Shown here: piece by piece, positions 18,622 to 62,967 of the stretch
How positions within the stretch are numbered: the stretch's first letter is position 1
Layout of the letters: every line of letters starts with the position of its first letter
Source of the DNA: Sinorhizobium psoraleae
Lineage (GTDB): Bacteria > Pseudomonadota > Alphaproteobacteria > Rhizobiales > Rhizobiaceae
Assembly: GCF_013283645.1 (NCBI RefSeq)
Contig: NZ_JABEKV010000002.1
Span: 627,798-691,797, forward strand
Direction: 5' to 3'
DNA: 64,000 nucleotides
Notes under the pieces: generated by a model
What the model saw: only the letters and a program-made list of their open reading frames with translations
What the model was told of the DNA's origin: nothing
Database searches by the model: none
Position numbers and translations under genes: made by a program

Positions 18622-18644
18622 GAGGCGGAAATGATTTCCGCCTC
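18622..18644. repeat. Border palindrome 1 (GCGGAAATNATTTCCGC family)
   Basis: Two perfect 11-bp arms, GAGGCGGAAAT and its complement, flank a single G at 18633. It lies in the 43-base gap between two convergent recombinase genes. Copies occur at 30168, 42030, 56263 and 62951. By shape alone it could terminate transcription, but no T-run follows. Confidence 0.85.
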
Positions 18645-18657
18645 AGCACTCCGCAAA

Positions 18658-20994
18658 TTAGGCCGCTTCCCAGACCTGGTTGAGAATGCGGGCAGCCAGC
18701 GCCGCCTTGTCCTGCGGAAGGAAGCGGCCGTAGTGCTTGGCGACCATGTCCGCCGTATCCTGGATGGCGTAGCTTGCCTGCTCGTAAGAGCCAGTCTGCT
18801 TCAGGATGTGGGTCGCCAGAACATCACGAACGTTATGGGGGCCATGGGGCAGCAGGCCTTTGATCGCCCCTCGCCCGGTATAGGGGTTGTAGATGCCATA
18901 ACGCTGGATGGTGAGCCGCCACGCCTCATAGAAGCTGGTGATGTCGTAGGCGGCGTCGGTACTCGTCGTCTTGACCGTCTTCACGAAAAACGTCCCGGGA
19001 TCGGCAGCACCTTTAAGAAGTACCGAACGGTGGCGCTCGACGTAATCATCAATGTGGCGGTAGAGGTCGAGCAGATCGGGCAGCACCAGCCTAAATGGTT
19101 TGTCTCCGAAGAACGACGAATGGGCGTTCTTGAAAGCCACCGCCGGGATCAACACCTCCCAGCCACCGTCTCGGTCACTCCAGCGGATTTCACCACGCTT
19201 GAGCTTTTCGAGCACGCGCTCCGAACGGGGCATTTGTCCGCGCGGGCATAGCATCAACTGCCGCAGGTTTTTCTGGCGAAGTCCAAGGTGCAGTCCTAGC
19301 CTCAGCATGAGGAACGAGCGAACCGCCTCGGCAGCCGGACGCGGATAGCGCTCCTCATCAGGCATCAGCCTGATGATCTCCTCGGTGATCCTCCGATATT
19401 CGCCGACAGGACTGTCAGCTTCGAGGACCGGCATGATCGGCTCGAACGGATCGCGATGGACCCGGGCGATGCGCTGGATTTCCTTCACACGGTGAGAGGC
19501 ATGTTTGTGAAAGTCCTCGCAAGCGCCGTGCCAATCCTCCCGGGCATAATCGATCTCGTTCTGCGAGACGAGACCGGCAATAGGCTGCACACGCGCCAGG
19601 AGTTCCGGATGTTGCCGAAGCCACCCGGTGCTTTCCTTGGTGATTGCCAAGGCGATCCGCAGCATGTCGACTTCCCACGCCGTGTAGAAACCCCGGCGGC
19701 TTTCGCGCCATTGCAGATACCAGTCCCAGACCCCCGGAAAGATTAGCAGTCCGAAGGTCAGTTGGCGCAGCGGCACCCCATATCCCTTGATCTCTCCCGC
19801 CTTTGACGCCGCAAGTGCGCCAAACATCAGGCCGAGATGCTCAATCTTCTGGGAGGCGGTTTCCTCGCCCCAGACACCGTTTCGCTGAAATCCGATCGAG
19901 GTCAGCGCGGATGTCTTGAAGCGGACCAAGTCCGCCATTTCCATCGCGAGCGTCGGCGGCGCATCGATGACGCCGGACAACAGGTCAGGGTCTTCGATCC
20001 AGGTCTCTTCATAGTTCGCCGGAACCGCGATCTTTCCATCACGCGGCGCGCGTCCACCGTAGGATACGCCGGGAAAGCGGATGGCATAGCGCTGCTTCGC
20101 CGCGGCAGCCTGAAATTTGCGATAGTCCGTCGACCCGCTGATGATCACGCGACGGACCCAATCCAAAATCTCCTCGCGCTTGGCGAACGGAAGCGAGTTG
20201 AAATCATCTGGTAGATGCCACGCGATCCTGCGTCGTTCCGCAGGCTCGAGACCAGAGAGATTGAAACCGGACGCCGACCGCGACTGATGCGGCAGCTTCG
20301 CTTTGAAGTAGCCCTCCGGGAGACGATAGCGGCGCTCGATACGGCCAAGGACATCGAAGCTGTCGGTGCTACGTGGCACACGCCGGCCTTCGATCCAGCT
20401 CAACAGTGTATTCTTGTCCATGGGCTCATCAGGTCGCACGACTGATCGATAGAGAACCCAGTAGGTCTCACCGTGGCGACGCATGTGGAGCTGGAGTGCG
20501 GCTGCGAAGTCGGCGGGGTCATCCCACTCGCGAAACAAAGGTTGCGGAAACTCGACTATCACGCCAGGCTTATGCACCGCGGGGGCGACCTGGGAACGCG
20601 CAAATTTCGGAAGTGCCGACTTGATTGTCGGTTTCGCTTTCTCGGCGCTGGCATTCTTTGCCCTCGTTGCGCCTCCGACCTTTCGGGACCCCTCTTGCAC
20701 CGCTCCAGCGGTTTTCTCGCCGTCCCTGTTCCAACGAACGATGGCATCAAACCCGGGGTCGATCAAACGGTGGTGCGATGCAAGCGATCGAGCATCGATT
20801 CCGGTCGTGCGGGCAACGACATCCCATTCTGTGCGGCCTCCCGTTCGGGGCGGTCCGCACCTTCGCTCGATAAGTCGTCGCATGTAGGCCCTAAGGGCTT
20901 CGGCTTCGTCGCTGGAGAAGGTGGTCGAGAGACGCAGTTCGCAATAGGCGTCGATCTTACGTTGGAAGGCTTTGATTGCAGTTAGCTTGGTCAT
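18658..20994 (-). CDS. Second large tyrosine recombinase-like protein
   Basis: A 778-residue protein unrelated at the N-terminus to the first integrase. The C-terminal third has the tyrosine-recombinase signature: arginine in LHLGLRQKNLRQLML (about residue 570), HNVRDVLATH (about 721) and tyrosine in KHYGRFLP (about 753). The N-terminal 500 residues include a basic linker (about residues 95-150) and a part with PYRLP/LSWIEGRRVPRS segments resembling DNA-binding helices. It follows a 104-residue small gene in the same direction. It could be a partner recombinase or move its own sub-element; role is inferred. Confidence 0.8.
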   Translation of the reverse strand: MTKLTAIKAFQRKIDAYCELRLSTTFSSDEAEALRAYMRRLIERRCGPPRTGGRTEWDVVARTTGIDARSLASHHRLIDPGFDAIVRWNRDGEKTAGAVQEGSRKVGGATRAKNASAEKAKPTIKSALPKFARSQVAPAVHKPGVIVEFPQPLFREWDDPADFAAALQLHMRRHGETYWVLYRSVVRPDEPMDKNTLLSWIEGRRVPRSTDSFDVLGRIERRYRLPEGYFKAKLPHQSRSASGFNLSGLEPAERRRIAWHLPDDFNSLPFAKREEILDWVRRVIISGSTDYRKFQAAAAKQRYAIRFPGVSYGGRAPRDGKIAVPANYEETWIEDPDLLSGVIDAPPTLAMEMADLVRFKTSALTSIGFQRNGVWGEETASQKIEHLGLMFGALAASKAGEIKGYGVPLRQLTFGLLIFPGVWDWYLQWRESRRGFYTAWEVDMLRIALAITKESTGWLRQHPELLARVQPIAGLVSQNEIDYAREDWHGACEDFHKHASHRVKEIQRIARVHRDPFEPIMPVLEADSPVGEYRRITEEIIRLMPDEERYPRPAAEAVRSFLMLRLGLHLGLRQKNLRQLMLCPRGQMPRSERVLEKLKRGEIRWSDRDGGWEVLIPAVAFKNAHSSFFGDKPFRLVLPDLLDLYRHIDDYVERHRSVLLKGAADPGTFFVKTVKTTSTDAAYDITSFYEAWRLTIQRYGIYNPYTGRGAIKGLLPHGPHNVRDVLATHILKQTGSYEQASYAIQDTADMVAKHYGRFLPQDKAALAARILNQVWEAA

Positions 20995-21237
20995 TTCACT
21001 TCATGCTGTTCGTTACTCGGACCCTCTATGCGAGGGGGCCGGTCGAGCTAAGCCAAGCAGATTAACGGAGGATTGGAGCAGCAGACTGCTTCTCCGGAAA
21101 TCCGATTCAGAATCAAACGGCGTTTTACGAAGTAATGGGGGGAGAAGTCGTCATTCCATCAAACGCCGTTAGGCGTTGGATCGGCTTCGTCGAGCAAACA
21201 TATCCGATACCAAAGGACCGTGCGGACCCAGGCGCGC
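20995..21237. other. Spacer between small gene and recombinase 2
   Basis: No gene seen. It carries ATCAAACGGCGTT (about 21113-21125) and ATCAAACGCCGTT (about 21158-21170), a closely related pair that could be operator half-sites for the downstream recombinase gene. Confidence 0.4.
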
Positions 21238-21552
21238 TCAAATCTCCTGGTCGAGGCCGTCGGGATGGATCAGGTGGATTTTCCTGCGGAACGGCGAGCC
21301 GCCCGTCCGGTACTTTGCGACCAAATCGTCGAACACTGCGTCGCATTCACGCTCATCGAACCCCTGATCGGTCAGCATCGAGACGATCTTGTTCTGGAAC
21401 TTCTCAAGCTCCAACTGCTGCCCCTTCTCGATCGCCCGCCGGATCAGCCAAAACAGCGCCACCCGGGCCACGTCATCTCTGTCGGGCCGCTTCGCCCTCT
21501 TGTTGGCGTCGCGAAGCGCCTTCTGTCGTTGCCTGGCTATCTTCAGGGTCAT
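21238..21552 (-). CDS. Small helical protein beside recombinase, unknown function
   Basis: A 104-residue charged, helical protein (MTLKIARQRQKALRDANKRAKRPDRDDVARVALFWLIRRAIEKGQQ...). The ATG at 21552 is chosen because GGGAGGAGC lies 3-6 bases upstream; an earlier in-frame ATG at 21582 has none. No family recognised. Genes of this size next to large recombinases often encode directionality or accessory factors, but there is no evidence for that here. The 243 bases between it and the recombinase gene hold two AAACG(G/C)CGTT boxes. Confidence 0.65.
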   Translation of the reverse strand: MTLKIARQRQKALRDANKRAKRPDRDDVARVALFWLIRRAIEKGQQLELEKFQNKIVSMLTDQGFDERECDAVFDDLVAKYRTGGSPFRRKIHLIHPDGLDQEI

Positions 21553-21665
21553 GCTGCTCCTCCCGCTGCTTACCCTCTTCAATGGTCAGGGGAACGGCCT
21601 GCCGGCGCAAGCCTTGTTCGGCGGAATCGGAAATATCGACCTTTGAATCGGCGGCGCAGAAAAAT

Positions 21666-21816
21666 GAATCAAATGAGCGCAATTTGTTTCGAATTGCGGG
21701 CACGTTATCTCAACCCGAGACAACGCAATCGGCTGCGAACGGCGTTGATGAATCGTCGTATTCGAATTCCGAATCAAAAATCCGGTGTTCGGAATCAAAT
21801 GAGCGCAATTTGTTTC
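21666..21816. repeat. Pair of 25-bp direct repeats
   Basis: GAATCAAATGAGCGCAATTT followed by GTTTC occurs identically at 21666-21690 and 21792-21816, 126 bases apart, in the gene-poor stretch 21553-21871. Additional GAATC-rich sequence lies between. It is upstream of the small gene/recombinase 2 and downstream of the DUF429-like gene, so it may be a recombination or regulatory site. Confidence 0.8.
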
Positions 21817-21871
21817 AGGTTGCCGGAGACTTGATGTGAGTTGCAGACAACGTGCCGCACCTCATCTCAAA

Positions 21872-22810
21872 TCACGCCACATCATCACGATGGTGCCCGA
21901 GGATCCAGCCCTCCCATTTGTGGACGGCATCGATTGCAGGAATGCCTTCACCCCGCCGACCGTCAACGACATCGAGCATACCCAGCAATCCGATGACGGC
22001 ATCGAAACGATCCTCGCCTGTCTTGTCCGAGCCGAAGCCATCGTCGATGATCGGCTGAAGCAGACCGGTATCGAGGTTCGGCCGCGCTGCAAGCCAGGGC
22101 ACTATACTCTGTCCCATCCGTATCCGGTCTGTGTGGCGCCGCTTGCTCCATCCACTTCGGGGCATGCCGATCTGACGGTACACGTCACTGGGATAGGTCT
22201 CAGTGACGATGACCCGGTTGCTGTCCGCGAGATCGACTAGGCTTCCGTCAAACGGCCACAGTCCGATTTCATTCAGTCTCGGCACGATGATTTCCCGCCA
22301 TCCCGAGATCGCACCCTTGCCGACCTGATTGCCGCCAAGCGTCCAGAACAACAGGCAGGCCGCCTGCCGATCGGCGGTCGCCCGTTCGCAGATGCGCAGG
22401 AGCGACAAAGCGTCAGAGATCCGAAGGGCGTCGAACAGATGGGCGCGCGCCGTGCCACCGGGACGGACGGGATAGAACGGGCGCTGCAGCGAGATATGGT
22501 CGCGATGATCAGCGACATTGTACCAGTCCGACCAGATCTCGGACCCGAATGATGTCAGCGCCTCCCGGAAAGAACCGAGGCCGATTGCTCGCGTATAGGC
22601 CGCCGGCAGGCCTATCGGGAAGTCGAAGCCGATGAGAAGCGCGCCAGGATCGGCCGCGCGACGCCGCAGCCGCTCGAACAGGCTCGACGTGTCACCGACG
22701 AGTTCCGGAGATTGAAGATGCCAGTCTTCGCCGCGCTTGGTGGCCACAGCCATCCAGCGCTTTTTGTGGTCCATGCTCCAATCGCAATGGGCGACAACCG
22801 CGACACTCAT
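21872..22810 (-). CDS. DUF429-like (RNase H-fold) protein
   Basis: A 312-residue protein. VAHCDWSMDHKKRWMAVA near the start, LLIGFDFPIGLPAAY (about residue 60), VTETYPSDVYRQIG (about 200) and EDRFDAVIGLLGMLDV (about 270) resemble the spaced acidic motifs of DUF429, a predicted RNase H-fold nuclease family. Conserved Asp/Glu residues (D10, D62, E203, D273 by rough count) could form a metal site. It is the last gene of a five-gene minus-strand run with the M41 protease and AAA+ ATPase; the 41-base gap and GGAGTGCAGG ribosome-binding site fit an operon. Function is unproven. Confidence 0.65.
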   Translation of the reverse strand: MSVAVVAHCDWSMDHKKRWMAVATKRGEDWHLQSPELVGDTSSLFERLRRRAADPGALLIGFDFPIGLPAAYTRAIGLGSFREALTSFGSEIWSDWYNVADHRDHISLQRPFYPVRPGGTARAHLFDALRISDALSLLRICERATADRQAACLLFWTLGGNQVGKGAISGWREIIVPRLNEIGLWPFDGSLVDLADSNRVIVTETYPSDVYRQIGMPRSGWSKRRHTDRIRMGQSIVPWLAARPNLDTGLLQPIIDDGFGSDKTGEDRFDAVIGLLGMLDVVDGRRGEGIPAIDAVHKWEGWILGHHRDDVA

Positions 22811-22851
22811 CCTGCACTCCGCTTCTCCTCATCGGCGCATGACTATCAGGT

Positions 22852-23628
22852 TTAGGGCGGCAGATCATCGTCTGTCAGGATCTGCAGCACAGCCTCTTCA
22901 TCCAGCGCCTGGGCATCGAACAGCGCCTTGGCCAAGGCATTGAAGGTCGGTCTGCGCCTCCTGAGGATTGCCGCCGCCCGGTCGAGCGCCGCCTCCAGCC
23001 TGGCGTGAACGCGAGAGGCCAGGTCGGGGTCACGGTCGAGAACCGCGCCCGGATCGCGATGGGGTCGATAGAGCAGCGGATGTTCAGTCCCGAAGCCAAG
23101 CGTCCGCTCCAAGTCGAAGCCGATCCTTGTCGCCCGCGCCAGATCACTGTCGTCGGAGCCACCGGAGCCGCTCGATACGCGCTTGAGCATCAGTTTTTCC
23201 GCTGCCCGCCCGGCCATGAGCATGGTCAGCATATTTTCGTACCAGTCTCGGGTATCGGTGGACCAGACATGGAAGCCGACGAGATTGTAGCCGCCCTGCC
23301 CGGTATCGATATTGAGCCCACGGACGGGACCGAGATCGAGTGCATGATGGACAACCGCATGCCCTGCCTCATGGAACGCCCACCGCCAACGCAGATTGTA
23401 GGGCACGGGCGGACGATGGCCGCGGATGCCGTCTTCGATATCCTCGAAGCAGATCGCCCGCTTGCCACGTCGCGCCTTCAATCGCGCCTCCCGGACGATG
23501 CGTTCAATATCGGCGCCCGTCAGCCCCATGGCCCGCGTCGCCAGACGCCGAAGGATCGCGTCGCCGGGATTGCTCTGTTGCGAGGCTGCCGGCGTTTCCG
23601 CCGTGTTGCCGTTCTCCGGCTCGGTCAT
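22852..23628 (-). CDS. Stand-alone M41 (FtsH-type) zinc metalloprotease
   Basis: A 258-residue protein with the AAA lid-like stretch ATRAMGLTGADIERIVREARLKARR followed by the M41 peptidase: HEAGH zinc motif at residues 86-90 and the downstream aspartate ligand in GSDDSDLARATRIG. In FtsH these parts are fused behind a membrane anchor and an AAA+ module; here there is no membrane span and the AAA+ module is the preceding gene, whose stop overlaps this start by four bases. It most likely assembles with that ATPase as a split soluble FtsH-like protease. Substrates are unknown. Confidence 0.85.
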   Translation of the reverse strand: MTEPENGNTAETPAASQQSNPGDAILRRLATRAMGLTGADIERIVREARLKARRGKRAICFEDIEDGIRGHRPPVPYNLRWRWAFHEAGHAVVHHALDLGPVRGLNIDTGQGGYNLVGFHVWSTDTRDWYENMLTMLMAGRAAEKLMLKRVSSGSGGSDDSDLARATRIGFDLERTLGFGTEHPLLYRPHRDPGAVLDRDPDLASRVHARLEAALDRAAAILRRRRPTFNALAKALFDAQALDEEAVLQILTDDDLPP

Positions 23629-25598
23629 CGGCCTGCTCCCTTTCGTTCGTCTTCCGCCTCTTTCTTCAGATGGTCGGCAACGATCCTCTTCAGCGAGAAC
23701 CCGTCATCGGTCTCCGACCGGGCGTCCGGTTCCTGCTCCCGGATCAGCGACATCACATCGTCGCCGAGATGATGCGCCAGGATTTGCGCGAGCGTCGGGA
23801 CACCGGGCTTCGGGATTTCGATATGGGTTTCCAGCCGTCCGGAGCGTTTGATCGCCTCGTCGATATCGTCGGGGCGGTTGGTAGCGCCGACGACGATGAG
23901 CCCCTCGCTCTTCACGGCGCCGTCGAGCAGTTCAAGCAGCTTGTTGACCACGGTATTCCAATAGTCGGCATGTTCGCGCTCGGCCGACTGCCGCTTGCCG
24001 ATGCCGTCGATCTCATCGATGAACAGGATCGCCGGTGCCATGGTACGCGCCTCGACGAAGGTCTTGTTCATCTTGTCGATCACGTCGTTGAGATGCCCGC
24101 CCTGAAGCCAGGTCGAGACGGAGGTTACGACCAGCGGAACCTGCAGGCTGTTGCACAGCGCCCGCGCAAAACTCGTCTTGCCGGTCCCCGGCGGGCCGGA
24201 CAGAAGCAGCTTGGTACTCATCTCCGACCAGACAAGGATGCTCGCGCGATAGTCGTCGAGGTCGGCTTTGAGATCGAGCGCCCAGTCCTTCGCCTTGCCG
24301 TAGCCGGAGAGCGTTTCGACGGTCACGGGTGGCCTATGGCCGGCCTCGTCAGTCGCCAGCAAAGGTTCCGGCTGGATCACTTCGGCGCCCGACGGCTTGT
24401 CCTTTTTCCAGCGGGTGCTGCTATCGCTGTCAGAAGGTTTTGGCTTCTCGTCCGACCCCGTGGGTTTGTCGGTGGAGGTGGCGGAAGGCTTCGATCCGGA
24501 TCCCCTTGCCTTCTCGCCACCATCGCCGTCCTCCTCCTCGAAGTCACCGCGATTGCGTTCGATGAGGATTGTAAGGACGTGCAGCACGTCCCGGACATGC
24601 CGTCCCGGCCGGAACGCAAGGACCAGATCCTCGAGCGACAGCCAGCGCGCATCGGAATCCGACGGCAGGCCCAGCGTCTCGATTCCCGCATTCGGATAGA
24701 GCACCTCGACGAGGTCAGAGACGAAGCTGCGCTCGAGCTTTCCCGTTTCCAACGACAAGTCGGCGGAGATGCGCAGGAGGGAGGGAATGTCCGACCGCTT
24801 CTCCGCGAGGGTAAGGATCGGGAAGCCGCGGGACAGCGCACTCAGCATCCGCCGACGCAGGGCTTTGCCGGTGACGCGATGCACCCCTGCGCCCGAGAAC
24901 GCCATGAGACGCCTGCGTGTCTCCCCTTCAACGACGTCGAAGTGATCGTCGTTGAACATGTGATCGGACTCGATGATCGCGAAGGGACCGCCAGGCACCA
25001 GCCGGGACTTTTCCAGAAGCCGCGTCACTTCCCGCTCAAAGCCTTCGAGTGGCGCGTGGAGCGTGACGACCGGCGTCACACAGGTCAGGGTATGAACGAT
25101 CTCCCGAAGTGACCGTCCGCTACCTCTGACCGCGCGCGCCAACACCAGGGCCGTCACGGTGTGACTGACTAGCGGCGCCGCCGCCCGATCGACCAGACCG
25201 ACGGCGTAGGCACGCCGATCGATGCCGTTGCCCAGGGCCGCATCTTGCACCAGCACGCCACGCCGCGCCCGGGGGAAGGCCACCAGCCGGGAGGCGAGCG
25301 GCACGCCGCTGACCTCCGTCGTCACGGCAATCTCGCCGCCAGAGCTAGAGGCCGGATTGCCGGTCTCTTTAGGCGTGACCAGCCAATCGCCAAAGTTCCG
25401 CCGGAACCAGGCGCCATCCCGAATCGGATCGCCGCTCAGCCGCGTCGTGTCGAAGGCCGGGCTGTAGTGGAAGAGCAGATGACCATCGACATCGATGATC
25501 TTGCCTTCCAGCAGGCCGCTGCGCAAAGCGGCCCGACGCGCCTCGCGGCGGGCGAGATGCCGAAGACGGTGAACGAACAGGCGGGCGATCTTATCCAT
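23625..25598 (-). CDS. FtsH-like AAA+ ATPase (partner of the M41 protease)
   Basis: A 657-residue protein. The C-terminal third is a classic AAA+ module: Walker A GPPGTGKTS (about residue 465), Walker B ILFIDEID (about 523), sensor GATNRPDDID and arginine finger region KRSGRLETHIEI. The N-terminal ~370 residues form a novel region, followed by an acidic, Ser/Pro-rich linker (about 375-430). No membrane span is present. The ATG at 25598 overlaps the upstream stop (ATGGATAA), and its own stop overlaps the M41 start, so three genes are translationally coupled. Unfolding of substrates for the M41 protein is inferred. Confidence 0.85.
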   Translation of the reverse strand: MDKIARLFVHRLRHLARREARRAALRSGLLEGKIIDVDGHLLFHYSPAFDTTRLSGDPIRDGAWFRRNFGDWLVTPKETGNPASSSGGEIAVTTEVSGVPLASRLVAFPRARRGVLVQDAALGNGIDRRAYAVGLVDRAAAPLVSHTVTALVLARAVRGSGRSLREIVHTLTCVTPVVTLHAPLEGFEREVTRLLEKSRLVPGGPFAIIESDHMFNDDHFDVVEGETRRRLMAFSGAGVHRVTGKALRRRMLSALSRGFPILTLAEKRSDIPSLLRISADLSLETGKLERSFVSDLVEVLYPNAGIETLGLPSDSDARWLSLEDLVLAFRPGRHVRDVLHVLTILIERNRGDFEEEDGDGGEKARGSGSKPSATSTDKPTGSDEKPKPSDSDSSTRWKKDKPSGAEVIQPEPLLATDEAGHRPPVTVETLSGYGKAKDWALDLKADLDDYRASILVWSEMSTKLLLSGPPGTGKTSFARALCNSLQVPLVVTSVSTWLQGGHLNDVIDKMNKTFVEARTMAPAILFIDEIDGIGKRQSAEREHADYWNTVVNKLLELLDGAVKSEGLIVVGATNRPDDIDEAIKRSGRLETHIEIPKPGVPTLAQILAHHLGDDVMSLIREQEPDARSETDDGFSLKRIVADHLKKEAEDERKGAGR

Positions 25599-26133
25599 CG
25601 GCGCGCCCTTCGGTCTCCGCGGCAATAATTGCCGTTTCGGGGTTCCGCACCGGATCGCGCGACCGTGTCCGGAGGCGCCTTTGACGGTCGCGGTGACCGG
25701 ACATCGTGGAAGCCGCCAGCACACGTTCGCGCGGCGAACGACGCAGCGGATGGGTGTTCCCCGGAGGAGCGACCGAAGCAGGCGACGAGAGATGCTCGTT
25801 CGGGAAGCGGCCGAAATCCCGGTTGCGGCTTCGCAGCCAGTCGAGCAGCAGGCGGCATGCCGGGTCGCCGCCATCGGCAAGCGCATTCAGCCGCAGCATT
25901 ACGGGCTTCGGCACGTGGCCATCCAGCAAAGGACCTTGCCGGACGAAGGCGAGCGCCAGGCCGATTAGGATGGCGGGATCGTCAGCGGAACCTGGATGCT
26001 GGTCGACGCCAGCGGATACGAGGCAGGGAATAGTCGCGAGCCTGCCGTGAAGGCAGGGCAATGCGATGGTATCGGGCGTGACCGCTTCACAACGGAAGCC
26101 GGCCACAGACGGGCTGTGGGTATCGATGGACAT
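25591..26133 (-). CDS. Unknown 180-residue protein of the AAA+/M41 operon
   Basis: A protein of about 180 residues with no recognised domain. The first ~100 residues look folded (AILIGLALAFVRQGPLLDGHVPKPVMLRLNALADGGDPACRLLLDWLRSR); the rest is Arg/Ser/Pro-rich and probably disordered. Start ATG at 26133 follows GAGGAGACAGTC. Its stop overlaps the start of the ATPase by eight bases. An adaptor or substrate-delivery role would fit its place but is speculation. Confidence 0.6.
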   Translation of the reverse strand: MSIDTHSPSVAGFRCEAVTPDTIALPCLHGRLATIPCLVSAGVDQHPGSADDPAILIGLALAFVRQGPLLDGHVPKPVMLRLNALADGGDPACRLLLDWLRSRNRDFGRFPNEHLSSPASVAPPGNTHPLRRSPRERVLAASTMSGHRDRQRRLRTRSRDPVRNPETAIIAAETEGRADG

Positions 26134-26241
26134 GACTGTCTCCTCGCCGGAGCGCATGGCCTCCAGCGTTGTCGGAATGGAAGAAGGGGAAGCGGGCCGC
26201 GCACGTCTCGGCGCGGCCGCGATCAGTGCCGCTGGCTAGCG

Positions 26242-27309: not shown

Positions 27310-27562
27310 AGCCCGATTCCTTTTCGCGAAGGCTGAGGGTCAGGCCCTAGTCGATGTTACCAGCATCGGCTTGGGCCGCTTTGTGTCCGGTCTTCCGAAC
27401 GGCCTTACCCTGGCAGGACCGGGAGCCGGGCTCAAGGACCCAGAAGAGCAAAAAAGAACAAAGCCGGTACATAGTTAACGGCGGGCCCACGAGGTCCGGG
27501 ACCGATGAACGCTTCCGGCGATCGTCACATTCGCCGGCGCGTGTCCACTGGCCATCGAATGC

Positions 27563-27590: not shown

Positions 27591-27643
27591 TCGAATTTGG
27601 TGGGAAGGCCGGGATTCCGGCCGCCCGGTCTTGGGTCAAGCGA

Positions 27644-53900: not shown

Positions 53901-56036
53901 CAGCAGCGTGGCCTCCTCCAGCCATGACACCGCGGTCTTCACCCTGGTGTCGTCGGTGTTAGTGTCGCGCTCGAATTCCTGATCGCGTTCAGCTCGCACG
54001 ACTTCGCCCGACGTAGCGACCACGGTGCCGGTCTTTTTCGTCCGCTCGTCAAGACGCCGCAGGGCCTTGAGGATCGCGCCGATTTCGTGCCGGGCTAAGC
54101 GCGAGCGAGCCGAAAGCGAGAACTGGCGCTCGACGTCCTCTTCGCCAAAGAGCAGCACGCAGTCGGCATGGGCACGGTCACGGCCCGCTCGCCCCGCTTC
54201 CTGCAGATAGTTCTCCAGTGATCCGGGAATGTCGCCATGGACCACCAATCGGATATCGGGCTTGTCGATCCCCATGCCGAAGGCGTTGGTCGCAGCAATA
54301 ATTCGCAGATCTCCGATGCGAAATCGTTCCTGAATGTCACGCTTCTCCTCGGACGTCAGCCCGGCGTGGAACCGTTCCGCGGACAGACCCTGCTGCTTGA
54401 GGAACTCGGCCACTCGCTGTGTCTCGCTGCGGGTGGCGCAATAAACCACGGCACCCGAAGCGCCCTCCTGTGGTAGCTTGGTCTCGATCACATCGAGGAT
54501 GTCCGCCAGCTTGGTGCCGCGCTGCGTCGGCCGGACCTCGAAGCTGAGATTGGTGCGCACTGCGCCACCGTCCAGCAGCAAAAGTTCGCGTCCAATCCGT
54601 GACTTGAAATGCTCTCGGATGTCCCGCACCACTTCTGGCTTGGCGGTGGCGGTTAGGCAGAGCACCTGGGCAGGCGCTTCATCGCCCGAAGATTCCTTGA
54701 TGAAGCGGCTGACATAGCGGTAATCAGGCCGGAAATCGTGTCCCCATTTCGACACACAATGCGCTTCGTCCAGCACCCAGAGCCCGATCTCACGCTGTGC
54801 CAGAACCGATCGAACCGAGTTGCTGCGCAATTGCTCGGGTGAGATCAGGAGCATTGCGGCCTCTCCCATGCGGACACGATCCAGCGCATCCTGCCGCTCG
54901 GGCATCGAAAGCATTCCATTGACGGTCACGGCAGAGGATATCCCTGCCCGCGCCATACCCTGCACCTGATCAGCCATCAACGCGACCAGCGGCGAGATCA
55001 CCACTGTCAGCGCTCCGGTCTTGTCGAACTTCGACAGGGCGGGAATCTGATAACAGACCGATTTGCCGGTGCCGGTCGGCAGAATGCCGAGGGCGCTCGA
55101 CCCGCGCATCGTCTCATCGACGATCCGCTCCTGTAGGGGGCGGCCCATATCATCCACGGGCTCCGCGCGGAAGGCATCGAACCCGAACCAGCGTGACAGC
55201 GCGCGCACCGGGTCGTTCTTCTCGCTACACCAGGCGCAATACGGGCTTTTGCAATTAGCGTCGCGTAGGTGCCGCACGATCAGTGCAGCCTCGCGGAACT
55301 GCGCCCGTACCCAGGGCGGCATGACGGAATCCCCGCCCGCAACCAGGATCCAGGACAAAGCATAGGCCATCGGCCAACCGAGCTGAGGATTAGAAAGGCG
55401 GTTCAGCGTCTGCTCGAGCCGCATCCCGCAGGCGCGCCTCGCCAGAAGCCGGGAAATCGCTTCTTGTGCCGCGAGAGGATCGGGCGCGGGAGCTCCGCGA
55501 ACCTCCCGAAACACCGCGTCGAACCCGCCTGGGTTCTCCATCCTCGTAGCAAGGAAATGAAAGGCCGCAACGGCATCGGGCTGGTCGGCGTTCTGCTGCC
55601 TCAAAGCCGCCAGTTGATTGCGCATTACCTGAAACACCAGTCGCGCATCCAGTTCGGGATCGTTGACATGGCCCGCTTGCAGGCGCCCGTCATGGTAGTG
55701 TTTGACCAGGTGGTGGTAGGGATTGCGCGGAAATGCGAGGGGATTGAGCCATAGAGTGTCTATCGGTGATCGAAGAACATTCGCCAACCCGGGCCGCACC
55801 GCGAACAGATGAGGCAAGTCATGCCGAAGTATGTTGTGGCCGAGCAGGTGCACGCCCTCGGTTGCTTCTGCTTCCAGGCGGTCGAGGGCCATCACGAGAT
55901 CGCGTTTTTTTGCCAGGATCGAGAGACGAGCATCATCGCTCACTGCCGCAAAAGCGAAGATGCTAGCAGTTGCAGGATCAACTTCCAGGTCGATCGAAAC
56001 GCAACGCTGCAGGAAGTGTTGGAGAGGCTCAGCCAT
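50934..56036 (-). CDS. Exonuclease-RecQ-UvrD fusion helicase
   Basis: A 1700-residue protein with three enzymatic parts. Residues ~12-135 are a DnaQ-like (DEDD) exonuclease: SIDLEVDP (D and E), LLGHNILRHDLP and NDPELDARLV. A RecQ-type helicase follows, with Walker A LPTGTGKSVCYQ (about 316), LDEAHCVSKWGHDFRPDY (about 427) and QEAGRAGRD (about 620). A UvrD-type helicase ends the protein, with LAGPGSGKTRVLVHR (about 1113), VDEYQDIGPEEY (about 1233) and HRSKGLEFDNVVI (about 1508). The ATG at 56036 is preferred over a TTG at 56045. It leads block C. Confidence 0.9.
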   Translation of the reverse strand: MAEPLQHFLQRCVSIDLEVDPATASIFAFAAVSDDARLSILAKKRDLVMALDRLEAEATEGVHLLGHNILRHDLPHLFAVRPGLANVLRSPIDTLWLNPLAFPRNPYHHLVKHYHDGRLQAGHVNDPELDARLVFQVMRNQLAALRQQNADQPDAVAAFHFLATRMENPGGFDAVFREVRGAPAPDPLAAQEAISRLLARRACGMRLEQTLNRLSNPQLGWPMAYALSWILVAGGDSVMPPWVRAQFREAALIVRHLRDANCKSPYCAWCSEKNDPVRALSRWFGFDAFRAEPVDDMGRPLQERIVDETMRGSSALGILPTGTGKSVCYQIPALSKFDKTGALTVVISPLVALMADQVQGMARAGISSAVTVNGMLSMPERQDALDRVRMGEAAMLLISPEQLRSNSVRSVLAQREIGLWVLDEAHCVSKWGHDFRPDYRYVSRFIKESSGDEAPAQVLCLTATAKPEVVRDIREHFKSRIGRELLLLDGGAVRTNLSFEVRPTQRGTKLADILDVIETKLPQEGASGAVVYCATRSETQRVAEFLKQQGLSAERFHAGLTSEEKRDIQERFRIGDLRIIAATNAFGMGIDKPDIRLVVHGDIPGSLENYLQEAGRAGRDRAHADCVLLFGEEDVERQFSLSARSRLARHEIGAILKALRRLDERTKKTGTVVATSGEVVRAERDQEFERDTNTDDTRVKTAVSWLEEATLLSREENKVQVFPSSLRIRNLEEAEAILARAAITGTRRKQLLDITRHLMNAPPDQGISTDELAGISGLTGGMLNKALADLEALGIARNDVVVTIFVHVAVDGHSQQRLTQAARLETALIALMREAAPDAEGAADVPLHLAETCQALRNQGHSAVRPDIVEKLLRSMGRDGRDQDGGKGNLRLRKASRNTLMVTLQRSWQALEQTAILRQQGAERLLGHLLGKLPKGSRGKDIQVETTIGDLLATLTGDALLRGSGIQDMTKLMERALLWLHEQEVVTLGKGLTIFRQAMTVHLNPSGGQFTVKDFTPLEDHYTEQTIQTHVMAAYAEKGLAAMEQALRLSEDYFVLERDAFLRRWMPGKGGEIRRQTTGSSWKTIVEALKNPVQQEIVADDREQTSVLVLAGPGSGKTRVLVHRIAYIIRVRREDPRGILVLTYNRHAAAEIRIRLRHLIGDDAAAVTISTCHALAMRLVGASFAGTASETSHDFDGIVLEAVRQLNGEGLSKPEAEAQRDTLIQGYRWILVDEYQDIGPEEYALISAVAGRSLDDKELRLSLFAVGDDDQNIYAFAGASIRFIRQFEADYSARPMFLVENYRSTGHIITAANAVIAPAVARMKAGHDIAIDRKRIKAPPGGDMAALDPVAHGRVQVLDCPPGDVAQAMTAVDELVRLSRLDPEWSWSRAAVIARDWRRLAPVRAYAEKLGIPVEMANESLPSIWRLREMQQFIDVLRRDSTRLLGVRDLVGVLNAIQSNRWTDLIGEGIAALAKELANKTMPVPDLVEWFAEWAHDARSDQRALLLLTAHRSKGLEFDNVVILNGGWDKPSKGEDPDAPRRLFYVAMTRARRSLSIIAEGQHPFVPHGEEHLLRRAASTVSNAADFPAALYQVPNLKTVDLSWAGRLKPDHPSLVAISAAKAGDPLQIVRDGPTWIMQDARGQALGRMAKSWSPPEGLNFLRGEVGAIVRWRKADNQEEFRVHLHRDVWEAVVPELVFG

Positions 56037-56562
56037 TTGCAACAAGTTCTAATCACGTGACTAAACGATTAGCGATCACGGTCGTGTGATTGGCGAAAGG
56101 CCAACGTTCTACTTGTACCACACAAGAACTTTACGAAATTGCCACCTATCCAACTCAGTTCTACAATACGACCCTCTACCGTGGCGAGTGTTAACTGCTC
56201 CTGATGCCTCACAGAGGGGATTTGCGCCTGGGTTCTTCGCGGGGCGGCAACCGGCGGCGTAAGCGGAAATAACTTCCGCGCTGAGCGCCGAAGCTACCTT
56301 ACTGGCAACCACCGCGGCACGGCGGCTACGCGCCTCGGTCGTAAATGCTGCTTCGGCCGATTGCCAGAAGCGGACGGTCTCCCCAATCGTCACTTCAAAA
56401 CGACCTACTCAACCTTTTGGGGTGTTCTTTCGTAGATCGACTATTGCGCGGGCCGGATTTTGCCGGCAAGGATTGACCGGTGCTTCGGATTCCTTTGGAA
56501 ATCCTGAGCTGGGGGAAACAACGAATTCGGAGCAATTGGTCGGCGCCGCGCTGTGCGCGAGG
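56037..56562. promoter_or_regulatory. Divergent control region of blocks C and D
   Basis: About 520 bases between the RecQ-UvrD gene and the flavin oxidoreductase gene, holding border palindrome 4 and both promoters. A 94-codon frame beginning with GTG on the minus strand (56393-56109) crosses it but has no ribosome-binding site or recognised family, so it is not called. Confidence 0.5.
56263..56279. repeat. Border palindrome 4 (GCGGAAATAACTTCCGC)
   Basis: Two 8-bp arms with one mismatch around A56271, between two divergently transcribed blocks. Because both neighbours point away from it, a terminator role is excluded for this copy. Confidence 0.8.
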
Positions 56563-58953
56563 ATGCCCGCGCCGAGCAAAGTAGGCATGATCGGTATCTC
56601 GGACCCGCTAAATGATTGGATTACGGCAAGCACGCTGCCGGGAAGCGACGGTCTATATTTTCTAGGCACGTTCGAGCGGCGCATCACATTCTATTCCCAG
56701 CAGGTCCGTGCATTCCGATTGGTCAGAGCGCTGCACGAGCGAGGCATGCTTAAGCCGAACGATACAGTGGCCGTTGTCGGTGGTGGCGCCGCGGGCGTGA
56801 CTTGCGCATTGGCACTGGGCCTTCTGGACTACGACGTCGGCCTGTACGACCCCGCGCTAGAAGTGCTTCAACTTCAGAGCGCCTCGCCTCGCCTGCTCCA
56901 TCCCCATATCTACGAATGGCCAGCGCCAGGGTCGCTCGACAAGAGCGCCGGATTGCCGTTCCTCGACTGGGATCTGGATACCGGCAAGCCGATCGCGAAG
57001 CGGCTAGCAGCCGAATTCCATAGCCACAACGCCATGCTCCCGAAGCTCATTTGGAATAAGGGAGCTCGCCTCGAGAAGCTGGAAAAGTCCGGTGCGGAAT
57101 GGCGAATGACGTTCGCCGGTGGCGTGTCAAAGATCGTCCAGAAGGTCTTCCTCGCCATGGGCTTTGGAGACGAACGGACCGTCGGGGCGGCTGACACCTA
57201 TGACTATTGGAAGGAGCGGGGCGTCGGGACAGCCGCGGTCGAGGCCATTGCGCCTGCGACCTATCTTGTAAGCGGGAATGGCGATGGCGCACTAACTGAC
57301 ATCCTAAACCTCCTTATCGATGGGTTCGAGCACGTCCCGTTTACAGAGACCTTCCTCGGCTATTTCAATCAAGACATCCTGCGAACTACTGTCCTGAAGG
57401 CGTACGAGGGTCTCGCGCCGGAGGCTGATCTGGAGCCGATATTCGAGAAGGACGTGCTCACGACCTTTGGTGAGCGGGGGATCCTAGATCGGCTGGTACC
57501 GCAAGTCCGGGCCGATCGGCTTCTGACCGTCAACTCCAGCGGTCCGCTGTTCTCAGTGGGAAAGGCAGCTCAGCTCAACCAAGCAATGGTCTTCGCTGTC
57601 CTGCACGCAGCTCAGCAGAAAGGTGTCGTCGTCCGCCGCAGCTCCGGTATGATCGAAGATGTGATCGAGCACGCAGATGGCCTTGAGCCTGTAGGGATAA
57701 CCTTGAATGGGGCAGCCCTTGTGGAGCGGTTCCATCATGTGATCCTGCGGCATGGCCCAGATAAGAACGAGCGGTATTTCCCAGCAAAAGAGCAGTTCGA
57801 CGAGTATCAGAGGGTATCCACGGACCGGTTCAAGGCGAAGCCCGAACTGCTTGTCCCGCCCACCCTCGATGCCGAAACTTATACTGTGTTTTTCGACCTC
57901 TGGCTGCATAGACTTGCCGACGCTGCCAGAAAATCGCAGCTCGCCGGGCGATCCACCCTTGAGGCCTCCACCATTTTAGTCACCTGGGACGTCGCGACCC
58001 AGACATTGGTGCAGCGCGGCAAGGTCTTGCTTGAGGAGCTGGTGACCCAGTGCGAGTCCGCGGCCACACCTGTCGTCGTGCAACTAGAGGTGACACCGGA
58101 GAAAATCGACGCTGATGATTTGATTCGCTTGAGCAAAGCCAGTGGAGGCAAGATCACCCTCAGCCTTGGAGCAACCGTGCAAGAGGCGTGGAAATCCAGG
58201 CTGCCCAACGCCGCCACCGCTATGACTGCGGCGTCACGCTATCCCTACCGGTTGGTCAGCGCGATCGATATCAGAGAGCATGTCGATGCCTCTCTCGTCC
58301 GCCAATTGGAAGCCATGCTCGTAGCAGCGCAGGCTGCTGGTACATGCGATACTTTGGGAAAGGTCGCAGCAGATGTTTTTGCAGAGGTTCTCGCCACCTG
58401 GGCCGGATGGCGCCATACACTTGATGCGTCACCCGCCCTCCGCCGTGATTTCCTTGCTTGGTTGGGCAGCATCGGCCCTGAGAGCGCAAAGCCATGGAGC
58501 GGCGACGTAACTGTGCTCGAGCGCATGGCGGGCGCATTGGTGCTGATCCTTGCAACCCACCTCGGTGAGCCACTCCAGCCGGCATCAGTGCCCAGAGGAA
58601 ATCTTAGCTTCGACGAGAACGGGCATGCACTGGGTTCATCCGCTGACAAGTTGGACGATGGCGGCTTGCTCACTGAATGGAGTTTGCCCGAACATTGGGA
58701 CGTCGACGCCCTTATCCTCTCTCGCAGCTCCGAGGTATTCGTAACAGGACCTGACGACACAATCCTGAACGGCGGAGATCCCGGAACCGGGCTTGATGTA
58801 GCGCGACGTACCAAGCCGGCGATCGTTCGGAATGATGGGCCGTGGCGCACGGCACTCAAGACTGGGCTTCCTGCGTGGAAAACCGCGGTGAAGGAAGAAT
58901 TTCAGGCGTGGCGTGAGCGGCAGAACAACGATCGCGATAGGGTACTGACATGA
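56563..58953 (+). CDS. lmuA: Lamassu/ABC-3C effector with flavin-dependent oxidoreductase domain (LmuA-type)
   Basis: A protein of about 796 residues. After ~65 residues comes a Rossmann dinucleotide site VAVVGGGAAGVTCALALG (about 70-87) and a long FAD/NAD(P)-binding region (to ~450) including LFLAMGFGDE-like and YLVSGNGDGALTDIL segments. The C-terminal ~250 residues are helical and fit the ABC-3C C-terminal domain that couples effectors to the SMC partner. Its stop overlaps the next start (ATGA). Lamassu systems with FMO-type effectors are known; NAD(P) depletion or redox damage is a plausible toxic effect. Start is uncertain: ATG 56563, ATG 56587, or alternative upstream starts. Confidence 0.75.
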   Translation: MPAPSKVGMIGISDPLNDWITASTLPGSDGLYFLGTFERRITFYSQQVRAFRLVRALHERGMLKPNDTVAVVGGGAAGVTCALALGLLDYDVGLYDPALEVLQLQSASPRLLHPHIYEWPAPGSLDKSAGLPFLDWDLDTGKPIAKRLAAEFHSHNAMLPKLIWNKGARLEKLEKSGAEWRMTFAGGVSKIVQKVFLAMGFGDERTVGAADTYDYWKERGVGTAAVEAIAPATYLVSGNGDGALTDILNLLIDGFEHVPFTETFLGYFNQDILRTTVLKAYEGLAPEADLEPIFEKDVLTTFGERGILDRLVPQVRADRLLTVNSSGPLFSVGKAAQLNQAMVFAVLHAAQQKGVVVRRSSGMIEDVIEHADGLEPVGITLNGAALVERFHHVILRHGPDKNERYFPAKEQFDEYQRVSTDRFKAKPELLVPPTLDAETYTVFFDLWLHRLADAARKSQLAGRSTLEASTILVTWDVATQTLVQRGKVLLEELVTQCESAATPVVVQLEVTPEKIDADDLIRLSKASGGKITLSLGATVQEAWKSRLPNAATAMTAASRYPYRLVSAIDIREHVDASLVRQLEAMLVAAQAAGTCDTLGKVAADVFAEVLATWAGWRHTLDASPALRRDFLAWLGSIGPESAKPWSGDVTVLERMAGALVLILATHLGEPLQPASVPRGNLSFDENGHALGSSADKLDDGGLLTEWSLPEHWDVDALILSRSSEVFVTGPDDTILNGGDPGTGLDVARRTKPAIVRNDGPWRTALKTGLPAWKTAVKEEFQAWRERQNNDRDRVLT

Positions 58954-59597
58954 CACCTGAGGTTTTGAAGTTCTTGTTGGTCGCCGCGACGGAGCAACTG
59001 GGTTGGAGAGCTGACGAAGTCAAAGACTTCGCCTCACCGACGTTTCGCAGCCGGCCGGCTGAAGCCGAGACGAAGGCGATGCCTGGCCTGTTTGGTCTCC
59101 GCCTGGGTCAGTATCCGGTGATCGTCGCGCCTATAGCGCTCGATACGGTTGAGGGCGTTACGGCTGCACTCAAAAAGCTGCACGCCCAGATGGTCGTCGC
59201 CAGGTCATATATGTATGAGCGAGAGGTCATAAACGCACATTTGTTGCTATGCGCAACCGCTCCTACTCCGACAGGGGACTGGGCCCGGCTGGTCGACCTC
59301 ATCGAACGTGACGAGACCGTCTGTCGGAAACTGGTTTGGATCCCGAAACAGACGGCGATGCAGGAGTCGTTCGACGTTTTCTTGGCGAGAACTTTTCTGT
59401 CGATGCCGTGGGAGCATGTGACGGCGGTGAGTGACGCACCGCTCGATCAGACACACGAATTGGCTCAGCGCCTTCTCGAGAAACACGGGCTCAATCAGGA
59501 TGTAGCTCAGCAGTGGGTTTCGCTCTCACAGCAGTTGATAGACGACCCAGAGAGCCTTGTGACAGAACTTGTCCTGACAAGGGAGGCGTCGAAATGA
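58950..59597 (+). CDS. lmuC: ABC-3C middle component (LmuC-type)
   Basis: A 215-residue protein lying between the effector and the SMC gene and overlapping each by four bases. An alpha/beta N-terminal part (PVIVAPIALDTVEGVTAALKKLHAQMVVARSYMYERE...HLLLCAT) is followed by DETVCRKLVWIPKQ and a helical tail with FDVFLARTFLSMPW, the pattern of ABC-3C middle components. These small proteins bridge the SMC sensor and the effector. Assigned mainly by context and this motif. Confidence 0.7.
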   Translation: MTPEVLKFLLVAATEQLGWRADEVKDFASPTFRSRPAEAETKAMPGLFGLRLGQYPVIVAPIALDTVEGVTAALKKLHAQMVVARSYMYEREVINAHLLLCATAPTPTGDWARLVDLIERDETVCRKLVWIPKQTAMQESFDVFLARTFLSMPWEHVTAVSDAPLDQTHELAQRLLEKHGLNQDVAQQWVSLSQQLIDDPESLVTELVLTREASK

Positions 59598-62500
59598 GCA
59601 GGGTTTACCTTACCCGCGTCCGGCTAGAGCAGTACCGAACCTTCAGGCAGTTGGATATTCGCCTCCGTGACGGTCCCGGCGTGCTGATCGTTCAGGGTAG
59701 CAACGGTATCGGTAAGTCCTCACTATTCGATGGACTCGAATGGGCGCTGACAGACAGGATTGACCACTTCCGTGATGCCGACGGGGTCAAAAAGGTTGGC
59801 AGCTATCTTTGCCGGTGGCGCGAAGGAACGCCTGGCCCCACGTCCGTGACCATGGACTTCACTGGGGAGAAAAGTGTTTCTCGCACCCTGTCTTCCTCCG
59901 AGGCTACCAGGTCGGTCACGGGCGGCAATATCGACGACATTACGGAATTCTTAAAAGACGAGAACTGGGGCCGGAGTATTTCCGGACTGTCGAGGTATTT
60001 GCTACTCACCCACTTCCTTGGACAGTCCACGATGTCCCGGCTCACGAACCGAGATCCGGGTGAGCGGTTCGATATCCTGAAGGAGGCAGCCGAAAGCAAA
60101 GAGATCGAAGACGTCGCGAATGCGCTTCATGGCAAGGGCAATACGAAAGCCGCCCGAGCCTATAACGGCCGGATCAAACTGCTGAGTGACGAGGTCGACG
60201 CTCTCCAAGGTATTCTCGACACAGAGGCGAATCTTTGGTCCGGGCTGACCGGAGTTGGCGCCTTGGATGACGTTGCCGCCACCGAGGCAACCCATACAAT
60301 TTCGCGGCTACTGGATGATGCGGCGGGCAACAAGTCTCAGACGCCAGTAGCTGGCTTCGATCAGAACACGATCTCGGCGTTGGACGAGCGTCTCAATGAG
60401 CAGCGGATACGACTGCGGAGCCTTGAAAAAGGTCTGGCCGAGGCGACGTCTGTACTTGAGGAATGGGAGAGCGCGACGCGGCAAGCGCTCGAGCATGAGG
60501 CTGCAAAGGCGATCGCTGACGGGCAGGTAGTGACTATGACGTCACAACACGCGGAGACCGCCGCCTCATTGGAGAAGGCCAAGGCCGAGGAGGTCAGCGC
60601 GACCAGCTTGGCAGAAGCGCACCGAGCCGTCTTCAGTCTGCTGACCGGCCTGCGGGACGCAAAGACTGCCCAGGCGGTTGCGCAGACTCGGAAGGAGGAG
60701 GCGGACGCTGCCCTCGTCGGGGCTTACGAGGCAGTCGCTGACGAAAACCTAACCGTGAAGGCCTTGGAACGTCGGCTGCAGATCGTGCGTCGAATTGAAA
60801 GTGATGTTGGCCGGCTCGATGAAAGGAGCCGATTAGACCAGACCGAGAGGCATAATGTGGATCTGTGGCTTGCTCGCGATGCGAAGGTTGCGGAGCTGCA
60901 GGCGTCGATACAGTCGTCCCAACTGCGCTTCCCCACGCTAGACTTGGACATCGAGCAGGCGGACGTCTCGGCTCGAGAAGCGAAGACACTCCTTGATGAG
61001 CAGAACGCCGTCCTTATCGAGTTGAGGAAGACGGTCTCGGAAATGTCGAGCGCGGTCGCTAGCGTTGCCGCCAACCTTCCGCATGATGCATGCGACTGTC
61101 CTGTTTGCGCGACCCACTTCGAGGTTAAGGGTGAACTACAACAACGGGCAGCAAGTGCAGCAGCAAGGCTGGCTCCCCTGGTTCTTGCGCAAGAGGAGCG
61201 CGTTCAATCTGCGTCGCAGCGCTCCGAGACAGCCACCAACCGCCTCGACCGACTGAAGACCGCCAAGCAAGAGCTGACCACGCTCACTGAAGAACTCCAA
61301 TCCGAGGAACGCGCAAGGACTGACGTGGGTATTGGTGTGTTCGGCGACGCTGTAGTTGACCGTGTGGTCGCTGAAGAGCGTCATCGACAACTGGCGACGA
61401 GCGCCGAAGAAATATTGAGGTTGAGGCAGCGGAAGTGGTATTGGCGGAACCGCTTGAACGGCGATTTCTTCACGCCCGGAGGCGAGCAGGCCGCTGCCAT
61501 CAGGAGGCGTGACCAAGCTCAGCTTCAACTGAACGCCGCAACCCAAACACAGTCGACTACTGCAGCCGAATTCGACGCCGCGGCGTCCTCCGTTCGAGAG
61601 CTCGTGGAAATCGTTGGTGATCTCGGCGAGGCCCAGTTGGCGGAAGCAATCCGTGGAACTCAGAGCGAACTTTCTGCGGCTGAGGAGAAGAGCCGACAAG
61701 CAACGCAGGCGCGGCAGTCGATTGAACAGCGGCTGGCATCGCTTGACGTTGCACTCCCGGCCGCAAGGACGCGTCAACAACAGGCTATTGATCAGGTCGC
61801 CGCTGTGACGCGACGAAAAGTCTACGCCGAGGAAACTTGGCAGAGACTTGCTTTCGCTCAATCGGAAGTACCCGACAAGCACGCGATCACTCCGTGGACA
61901 ACGACCATCGGCCGACTGCGAGAGAGGTTGAGAGAAGCCGATGATTTAATGAAGCGGCTGCGGGACGGTCGATCTGCCAAGGCTCTCGTAGATAATCATC
62001 TGGCAGCGCTGGAGCGGCTGCGGGTCGCGGTAAGTGGCGCCCCGAACAGCGAGAGACTGCAGCTTCGTAAGGAGGCGCAGGATCGCGTGTCTGCCAAGGT
62101 CAGACTCACGCAGGCAACCCGAGAGACAAAAGACATCGCCCAGGCCGCGAGCTCAGACATTCTCGACGAACTGGCGGATTTCAACACCAGCTACATGCAG
62201 CCTCTCGACACCCTCATGAAGGCCATAAACATGGCAATCATGGGCGATCCAAGGGTGGGCTTGGAGTCATACGTTAAGAACCGCCGCGTCGAACAGCGGC
62301 CAACAAAAGAGGGGCAGGCCCTCCCTCCTGAGATCGCGTCCATAGATGCACGGTTGATACACAGCGAAGGCCAAATGGCAGCCTTGTCTGTCAGTATGCT
62401 GTGTGCCGCCAGCCTAACCTACCCATGGTCCCGCTGGCGGGGGTTGGTCCTGGATGACCCGCTTCAGCACAACGACACTATCCACGCTGCCGCTTTCGCG

Positions 62501-62707
62501 GATTTCGTCTGCAATCTTGTGGCCAGCCGCGGATATCAGGTGCTCTTATCAACTCACGACCGCGCTCAGGCAGAGTTTCTGCGGCGGAAGATGACATCTC
62601 GAAACCTGCCTTGCGCCGTCCTCAATCTGCTGGGGACCGGGCAAGACGGTGTCGAATGGACCTACAGGACGGGGGAAAGCGCGACGCCCTTTGTGGTATC
62701 CGCATAA
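59594..62707 (+). CDS. lmuB: Lamassu/ABC-3C SMC-like ATPase with Rad50-type zinc hook (LmuB-type)
   Basis: A 1037-residue SMC/Rad50-like ATPase. Walker A GSNGIGKS is at residues 35-42, two long coiled coils flank a CPVC zinc-hook motif at residues 502-505, and the C-terminal lobe carries the signature SEGQMAALS (about 926) and Walker B LVLDDPLQ (about 951) with a D-loop and STHDRAQAE switch. Start ATG 59594 follows GGGAGG by 7 bases and overlaps the upstream stop. In Lamassu systems this part senses DNA ends or structures and releases the effector. Confidence 0.88.
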   Translation: MSRVYLTRVRLEQYRTFRQLDIRLRDGPGVLIVQGSNGIGKSSLFDGLEWALTDRIDHFRDADGVKKVGSYLCRWREGTPGPTSVTMDFTGEKSVSRTLSSSEATRSVTGGNIDDITEFLKDENWGRSISGLSRYLLLTHFLGQSTMSRLTNRDPGERFDILKEAAESKEIEDVANALHGKGNTKAARAYNGRIKLLSDEVDALQGILDTEANLWSGLTGVGALDDVAATEATHTISRLLDDAAGNKSQTPVAGFDQNTISALDERLNEQRIRLRSLEKGLAEATSVLEEWESATRQALEHEAAKAIADGQVVTMTSQHAETAASLEKAKAEEVSATSLAEAHRAVFSLLTGLRDAKTAQAVAQTRKEEADAALVGAYEAVADENLTVKALERRLQIVRRIESDVGRLDERSRLDQTERHNVDLWLARDAKVAELQASIQSSQLRFPTLDLDIEQADVSAREAKTLLDEQNAVLIELRKTVSEMSSAVASVAANLPHDACDCPVCATHFEVKGELQQRAASAAARLAPLVLAQEERVQSASQRSETATNRLDRLKTAKQELTTLTEELQSEERARTDVGIGVFGDAVVDRVVAEERHRQLATSAEEILRLRQRKWYWRNRLNGDFFTPGGEQAAAIRRRDQAQLQLNAATQTQSTTAAEFDAAASSVRELVEIVGDLGEAQLAEAIRGTQSELSAAEEKSRQATQARQSIEQRLASLDVALPAARTRQQQAIDQVAAVTRRKVYAEETWQRLAFAQSEVPDKHAITPWTTTIGRLRERLREADDLMKRLRDGRSAKALVDNHLAALERLRVAVSGAPNSERLQLRKEAQDRVSAKVRLTQATRETKDIAQAASSDILDELADFNTSYMQPLDTLMKAINMAIMGDPRVGLESYVKNRRVEQRPTKEGQALPPEIASIDARLIHSEGQMAALSVSMLCAASLTYPWSRWRGLVLDDPLQHNDTIHAAAFADFVCNLVASRGYQVLLSTHDRAQAEFLRRKMTSRNLPCAVLNLLGTGQDGVEWTYRTGESATPFVVSA

Positions 62708-62950
62708 GCGAGCTTAGCTAGACTTGCTGGTTTGTGATCGTAGGCATGGGTGCCCACCGACCACCAGATGTCCGCTTCCCACCTCGCTGCACCCAGGCGT
62801 AGCTCCGTCCGCTTCATGGCGCGCTGTGGACGGGGCCGTGCCCAAGACGATACCTAATCCGGACCGTTGCAGCGTCCTGTATGACCGACAGGTGGACGTG
62901 CTATCGCGGGGCGAGTTATGGCGGACCGGCAGCCAATCCGAAATTAGACA

Positions 62951-62967
62951 GCGGAAATTATTGCCGC
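62951..62967. repeat. Border palindrome 5 (GCGGAAATTATTGCCGC)
   Basis: Two 8-bp arms with one mismatch around T62959, 244 bases after the SMC gene stop and 121 bases before the putative attR. Confidence 0.75.

Follow-up and report, generated by a model that had tools for sequence, protein, structure and literature searches.

The closest known counterparts of the element described here are KorB operators, Noc sites and pdif modules. The element is a 17-bp palindrome that recurs along an integrative defence island of Sinorhizobium psoraleae and was analysed in a window of 64,000 nucleotides (contig NZ_JABEKV010000002.1, referred to as C12, positions 627,798 to 691,797). Noc-NBS and ParB-parS are systems of dispersed palindromes, and the dif-like site of the Xer/pdif system has a short spacer flanked by two different arms. 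In the pdif (XerC/D) modules of Acinetobacter plasmids, repeated short sites border exchangeable accessory modules. The 16-bp operator (OB) of KorB from RK2 is a short site of a ParB-type-domain protein that lies 4–10 bp or 45 to >1,000 bp upstream of promoters and acts near or far from them (PMC11790492). The S. psoraleae palindrome may well be a dispersed operator for a DNA-binding protein that the island itself encodes, the likeliest candidate being fam22, a predicted DNA binder. In the open-licence literature, no title on the palindrome or on such a system was found, which is not proof of absence because text matches to the 8-mer GCGGAAAT were too many to check all.

The palindrome is composed of the half-site GCGG[A/C]AAT inverted about a single central base, and its flanks are weakly conserved (the class-1 logo was built from 73 instances, one per flank pair). 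Two exact 17-mers lie in the window, at 18625–18641 (copy 1, between the recombinase genes int1 and int2) and 30168–30184 (copy 2, between an HNH endonuclease gene and a type IV restriction enzyme gene), and three others with one mismatch lie at 42029–42045 (copy 3), 56263–56279 (copy 4), and 62951–62967 (copy 5, GCGGAAATTATTGCCGC, + strand). At three or fewer mismatches, eight matches were observed in the window, compared with 0.46 ± 0.69 expected. These five sites were already listed in an earlier sequence-only reading of the window, whose 18622–18644 and 42030–42044 correspond to copies 1 and 3, lengthened or shortened according to symmetry, and the left flank of 16 kb is, as that reading stated, free of copies at up to three mismatches. 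Its statement that no copy occurs within any block was wrong, because the family member GCGGCAATAATTGCCGT (25619–25635, three mismatches to the pattern used there) sits within the nuclease/AAA+/M41 block, 20 bases ahead of the likely AAA+ start codon. Nor does every copy fall exactly between defence blocks, as had been claimed: copy 1 separates two recombinases, copy 5 marks the right end of the island, and copy 2 is not always a block border, since seven of the eight HNH junctions compared retain restriction enzyme-related sequence past the copy. The genome-wide search that the same reading had proposed identified nine sites at one or fewer mismatches in the whole genome (7.43 Mb), and these are not scattered through the core genome. 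Eight of them are located within 91 kb (C12:646422-737279), five in the window and three downstream of its end, and the palindrome series thus continues past the window.

The operator reading is based mainly on a gene module inside the island. The genes nuc68, AAA+, M41, and fam22 (22852–28882) form a recurrent module; among 394 genomes of the family, nuc68 was found in 73 and fam22 in 67, and fam22 accompanies the module in 57 of the 73. In the window, all four are on the minus strand: an M41-type peptidase (22852–23628), an AAA+ ATPase (23625–25598, its start shifted from 25886, by reading the sequence, to an in-frame ATG 20 bases past the palindrome), the PD-(D/E)XK-like protein nuc68 (26242–27309, motif identified by eye, with weak VRR_NUC and PstI matches in two relatives), and fam22 (27644–28882). 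Three plus-strand open reading frames (ORFs; 25996–27336, 27354–28100, and 28214–28738) run antisense to the conserved genes nuc68 and fam22 or overlap them, and they are likely to be spurious. Among the best 30 nuc68 loci from the 73 genomes with a match, 27 carry a member of the palindrome family at two or fewer mismatches, compared with 3 of 150 base-shuffled control loci; this search starts from the protein and not from the palindrome, with a profile seeded from regions holding copies. For five of these 30 loci, the genome contains no exact copy, and each of the five has a site with one mismatch. The site ACGGCAATTATTGCCGC lies 18–20 bases before the AAA+ start in one lineage (14 of 15 among the stretches listed), and in another lineage, for which eight regions were measured, 58–116 bp separate the site from the edge of the nuc68 match; the palindrome is thus nearly constant at the module, whether before the AAA+ start, ahead of the nuclease gene, or between these two genes. 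Ten further module loci included two with fully symmetric variants (GTGG...CCAC and CTGG...CCAG), four with near matches (G466, G474, G699, and G703), one with an unrelated palindrome (G727), and three in which no related palindrome was found (G557, G661, and G668); other, unrelated palindromes are also present in the stretches of these loci. A symmetric change of both arms is expected of a dimer site or a hairpin. The right-end copy, in contrast, carries a conserved one-sided A/G mismatch, and its representative in the window shows no folding (z +0.4), which favours a protein site.

In a predicted model, the N-terminal domain of fam22 (residues 27–152) aligns with the ParB-parS, Noc-NBS, and KorB-operator structures, which makes it a candidate ParB-type helix-turn-helix DNA-binding domain. 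Only ~26 residues precede the aligned domain, leaving no room for an N-terminal cytidine triphosphate (CTP)-binding domain ahead of this putative DNA-binding domain, and fam22 is therefore likened to ParB, Noc, and KorB in its working rather than classed as a member. From co-occurrence and position, fam22 would bind the palindrome GCGGAAATNATTTCCGC and would control the module and cargo from near and distant operators, as KorB does in RK2, and modules joined beside a copy would be retained through coming under fam22 control. An operator is the simplest account that covers the placement at AAA+ and nuc68, the co-occurrence, and the scatter of further copies, which follow int and HNH genes, occur at the att right end, or separate cargo operons. 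A shared operator had been listed in the sequence-only reading as an alternative, and it agrees better with the palindrome-independent data than a site for inserting or swapping modules does. The likeness to KorB operators has its limits, because the islands are chromosomal, integrative and concerned with defence, the site sequence is different, fam22 lacks space for a CTPase domain, and many island copies lie in convergent gaps and one at an att end. With Noc-NBS and ParB-parS, the predicted fold of the putative DNA-binding domain would be shared, whereas the CTPase domain is missing and the palindromes are found mainly on islands. Three points weigh against an operator of fam22: copies exist in genomes without a fam22 match, many placements are convergent, and the binding of fam22 to the palindrome is itself a prediction. 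The AAA+ part of the module matches the IetA models of PADLOC, and the nuc68-AAA+-M41-fam22 module may therefore represent a system of defence or control that has not yet been described.

To describe the placement of copies, 78 regions from relatives (2.18 Mb in total, most of 20 kb) containing 130 palindrome copies were used. The gene order in the fuller islands is tRNA (Gln, Ser, or Met), int, copy, M41, AAA+, nuc68, fam22, HNH, copy, and cargo, and many of the 78 regions contain a copy with no module gene within the 20 kb examined. Ninety-one of the 130 copies are intergenic, compared with 14% of bases, and the 90 copies placed between two ORFs comprise 37 in convergent, 37 in tandem, and 16 in divergent gaps. 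In addition, 12% of copies lie 50–100 bp before a predicted start, compared with 5% of random points. The exact 17-mer was found in 10 of 33 genomes of the genus, 65 of 394 of the family, and 6 of 397 sampled across the order, and a reversed control pattern gave no match in any of these searches. A scan of public contigs yielded at least 119 stretches, and the matches listed include many Hyphomicrobiales (Rhizobium, Shinella, Neorhizobium, Hoeflea, Brucella, and others) and scattered other phyla, with chance matches mixed in (an estimated ~60 among the hits from other phyla). Some of these loci have the same sequences as other genomes analysed here (L211 = G510, L169 = G656, and L226 = G010), and five genomes (G004, G008, G012, G015, and G019) match a looser pattern without the right-end segment and are probably unrelated. 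Among 32 IMG/VR stretches with the 17-mer, no match to module proteins was found. Twelve IMG/VR contigs (L262, L266, L267, L269, and others) share both arms of the exact 17-mer, which there stands beside sequence resembling the 5′ end of a tRNA gene and looks like part of another element. A conserved segment of ~77 bp lies ~40 bp beyond two copies in one genome (G035:C8:8989-9065 and 20508-20584), and among 12 genomes searched, parts of it have clear matches in G018 and G021 (near module loci) and in G031:C4.

Block joints fall at the palindrome much more frequently than expected by chance. The 480 internal homology breakpoints among the islands form 123 clusters, of which seven have a copy no more than 40 bp away in both sequences, compared with means of 0.036 (maximum 1) for shifted sites and 0.26 (maximum 4) for intergenic-matched pseudo-copies in 500 trials each, although nearly all of the 78 regions were picked for containing a copy and both controls correct for that only partly. 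Right-end copies account for two of the seven. Near-identical instances were dropped ahead of the comparison of arms (286 reduced to 267), and among the pairs listed, homology covers one arm in 353 and both arms in 169, most one-arm pairs being right-end copies. Several joins are exact at the copy or within ~19 bp of it: HNH homology stops at the copy in the eighth HNH junction (G510) and likewise in G512, int1 is followed after the copy by other genes in G656 and L177, the pair G593b/G714a has a 98% shared arm and ~19 bases shared past the copy, and the homology of G773 to copy 4 of the window covers one arm, the copy itself, and the next 15 bases, after which G773 continues into the right-end segment. 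In six Rhizobium plasmid records, helicase homology ends 10 bases before copy 4; two of the six were examined and have no copy at the join, with a right-end copy ~330 bp beyond. This enrichment may come from selection for cargo landing near an operator or from a role in recombination. Conceivably, the site is both operator and joint, in which case a ParB/KorB-like protein would mark every module border, modules of any origin would be acquired beside the site, and the defence mosaic would be assembled and switched as one regulon. That the palindrome is a recombination joint, where an island recombinase or nuclease acts and inserts or exchanges whole defence modules, is rather unlikely. The comparison of island breakpoints suggested by the sequence-only reading bears out its proposal of insertion or swapping in part, some breakpoints falling at the palindrome, but 116 of the 123 clusters are located away from it. 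Moreover, the offset between join and copy varies from 0 to ~19 bp, and the ten candidate empty/filled pairs are all tandem right ends, with none internal. The proposed agent, the second tyrosine recombinase int2 (18658–20994, minus strand), was detected by profile in 8 of the 78 regions (most of 20 kb) and is missing in the G656 island, in which both flanking palindromes are kept; its distribution thus does not support int2 as the general agent.

The manner in which the islands move also argues against a joint. The window contains an integrative island in tRNA-Gln(CTG) (16295–16368, + strand), with int1 after the tRNA gene; direct repeats of the tRNA 3′ end, i.e. the attachment (att) repeats at 16349–16368 (the last 20 bp of the gene, left) and 63088–63107 (+ strand, three mismatches in 20, right), together with int1, identify it as a tRNA-targeting genomic island. 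A conserved right-end segment extends from copy 5 (62951) to the copy of the tRNA 3′ end. Past the defence island, three more right ends follow in series (C12:690748-737430), each with the palindrome and a tRNA-Gln att repeat, and all four right att repeats of the S. psoraleae genome have the palindrome at 129 bp. The locus therefore resembles tandem tRNA 3′-end islands in its left att at the tRNA, its four serial right att repeats, and its integrase beside the tRNA, and differs from them in the extra palindrome at a near-fixed distance from each right att repeat. The island (16343–63110) is also present in another genus (G330, contig C24), where both limits of the match are att repeats. From ~27.8 kb to the right end (63.1 kb), most 250-bp windows are 99–100% identical, whereas the left part shows 72–97% identity, and the switch near 27.6–27.8 kb falls within fam22, away from any palindrome. 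In G330, the island is preceded by the 3′ end alone of a tRNA-Gln gene. A second unit (C12:695734-713425) shares 98.8% identity with another species over 17.7 kb and has att repeats at both ends. Because both recently shared units are bounded by att repeats, they moved by int-type integration and not at the palindrome.

Such regular spacing could also mean that the palindrome serves tRNA-targeting integrases as an accessory site (arm or excision-factor), its internal copies being remnants of earlier insertions. A palindrome lies 123–149 bp from each of the 14 tRNA-Gln att repeats found, which come from six regions, and 5 of 11 tRNA-Ser regions hold one 137–188 bp from the tRNA end; in seven other tRNA-Gln regions, no such att repeat was found within the stretch examined. 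This explanation nevertheless seems quite improbable, because the remaining copies in the window have no adjoining att repeat and the placements at AAA+ and nuc68 are left unexplained.

A role between operons, as a hairpin that terminates transcription in both directions or insulates, is similarly doubtful. It would accord with the 22% of the 130 copies that are centred within 50 bp past a predicted stop (5% of random points), the convergent share of placements, and the strong folding of copies 1 and 2 (z −4.0 and −3.0), but not with the unfolded right-end copy or with the copies ahead of AAA+ and nuc68, which lie upstream of genes. None of the 11 terminator-like sites in 18000–31000 coincides with a copy, and no hairpin followed by a T run (intrinsic terminator) was found at the copies within that stretch, the one scanned. 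Terminators are not known to conserve one sequence across genera. The repetitive extragenic palindromic (REP) or REPIN element, another alternative in the sequence-only reading, does not fit the confinement of eight of the nine sites to 91 kb of islands, and the site is not of the Xer/pdif type, its half-sites being symmetric around a 1-bp centre without dif-like asymmetric arms and movement occurring at tRNA att sites.

The remaining features of the island surround these sites as follows. The tyrosine recombinase int1 (16524–18614, + strand) contains DUF6538 and matches a PHROG integrase, with Phage_integrase under the Pfam cut-off, and copy 1 lies between its stop and that of int2. The latter is a probable tyrosine recombinase from a C-terminal HxxR...Y pattern read by eye; it gave no family hit and no profile match to int1, and its structure model was unusable. 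A DUF429-like protein (21872–22810, minus strand, under the Pfam cut-off) precedes the module. The HNH endonuclease (29105–30163, + strand) ends 5 bp before copy 2 and is followed by the type IV methyl-directed restriction enzyme (30204–31127, minus strand) and a type III restriction-modification/SNF2-HKD block (31162–41899, minus strand). Copy 3 lies 130 bp upstream of the ORF start at 41899. A minus-strand block of PDC-S68, Hsp70-like (weak), DrmD-like, and DpdF-RecQ-like helicase genes (42156–56045) is separated by copy 4, in a divergent gap, from a Lamassu system (LmuA, LmuC, and LmuB; 56422–62707, + strand).

A conserved border site and a candidate DNA-binding protein provide a testable handle on how defence islands gather unrelated systems and stay in check, namely on preferred joining points and common regulation, and the palindrome is a simple motif for locating island modules in rhizobia and their relatives. 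If the operator reading is true, KorB-like long-range control would be extended from plasmids to chromosomal defence islands.

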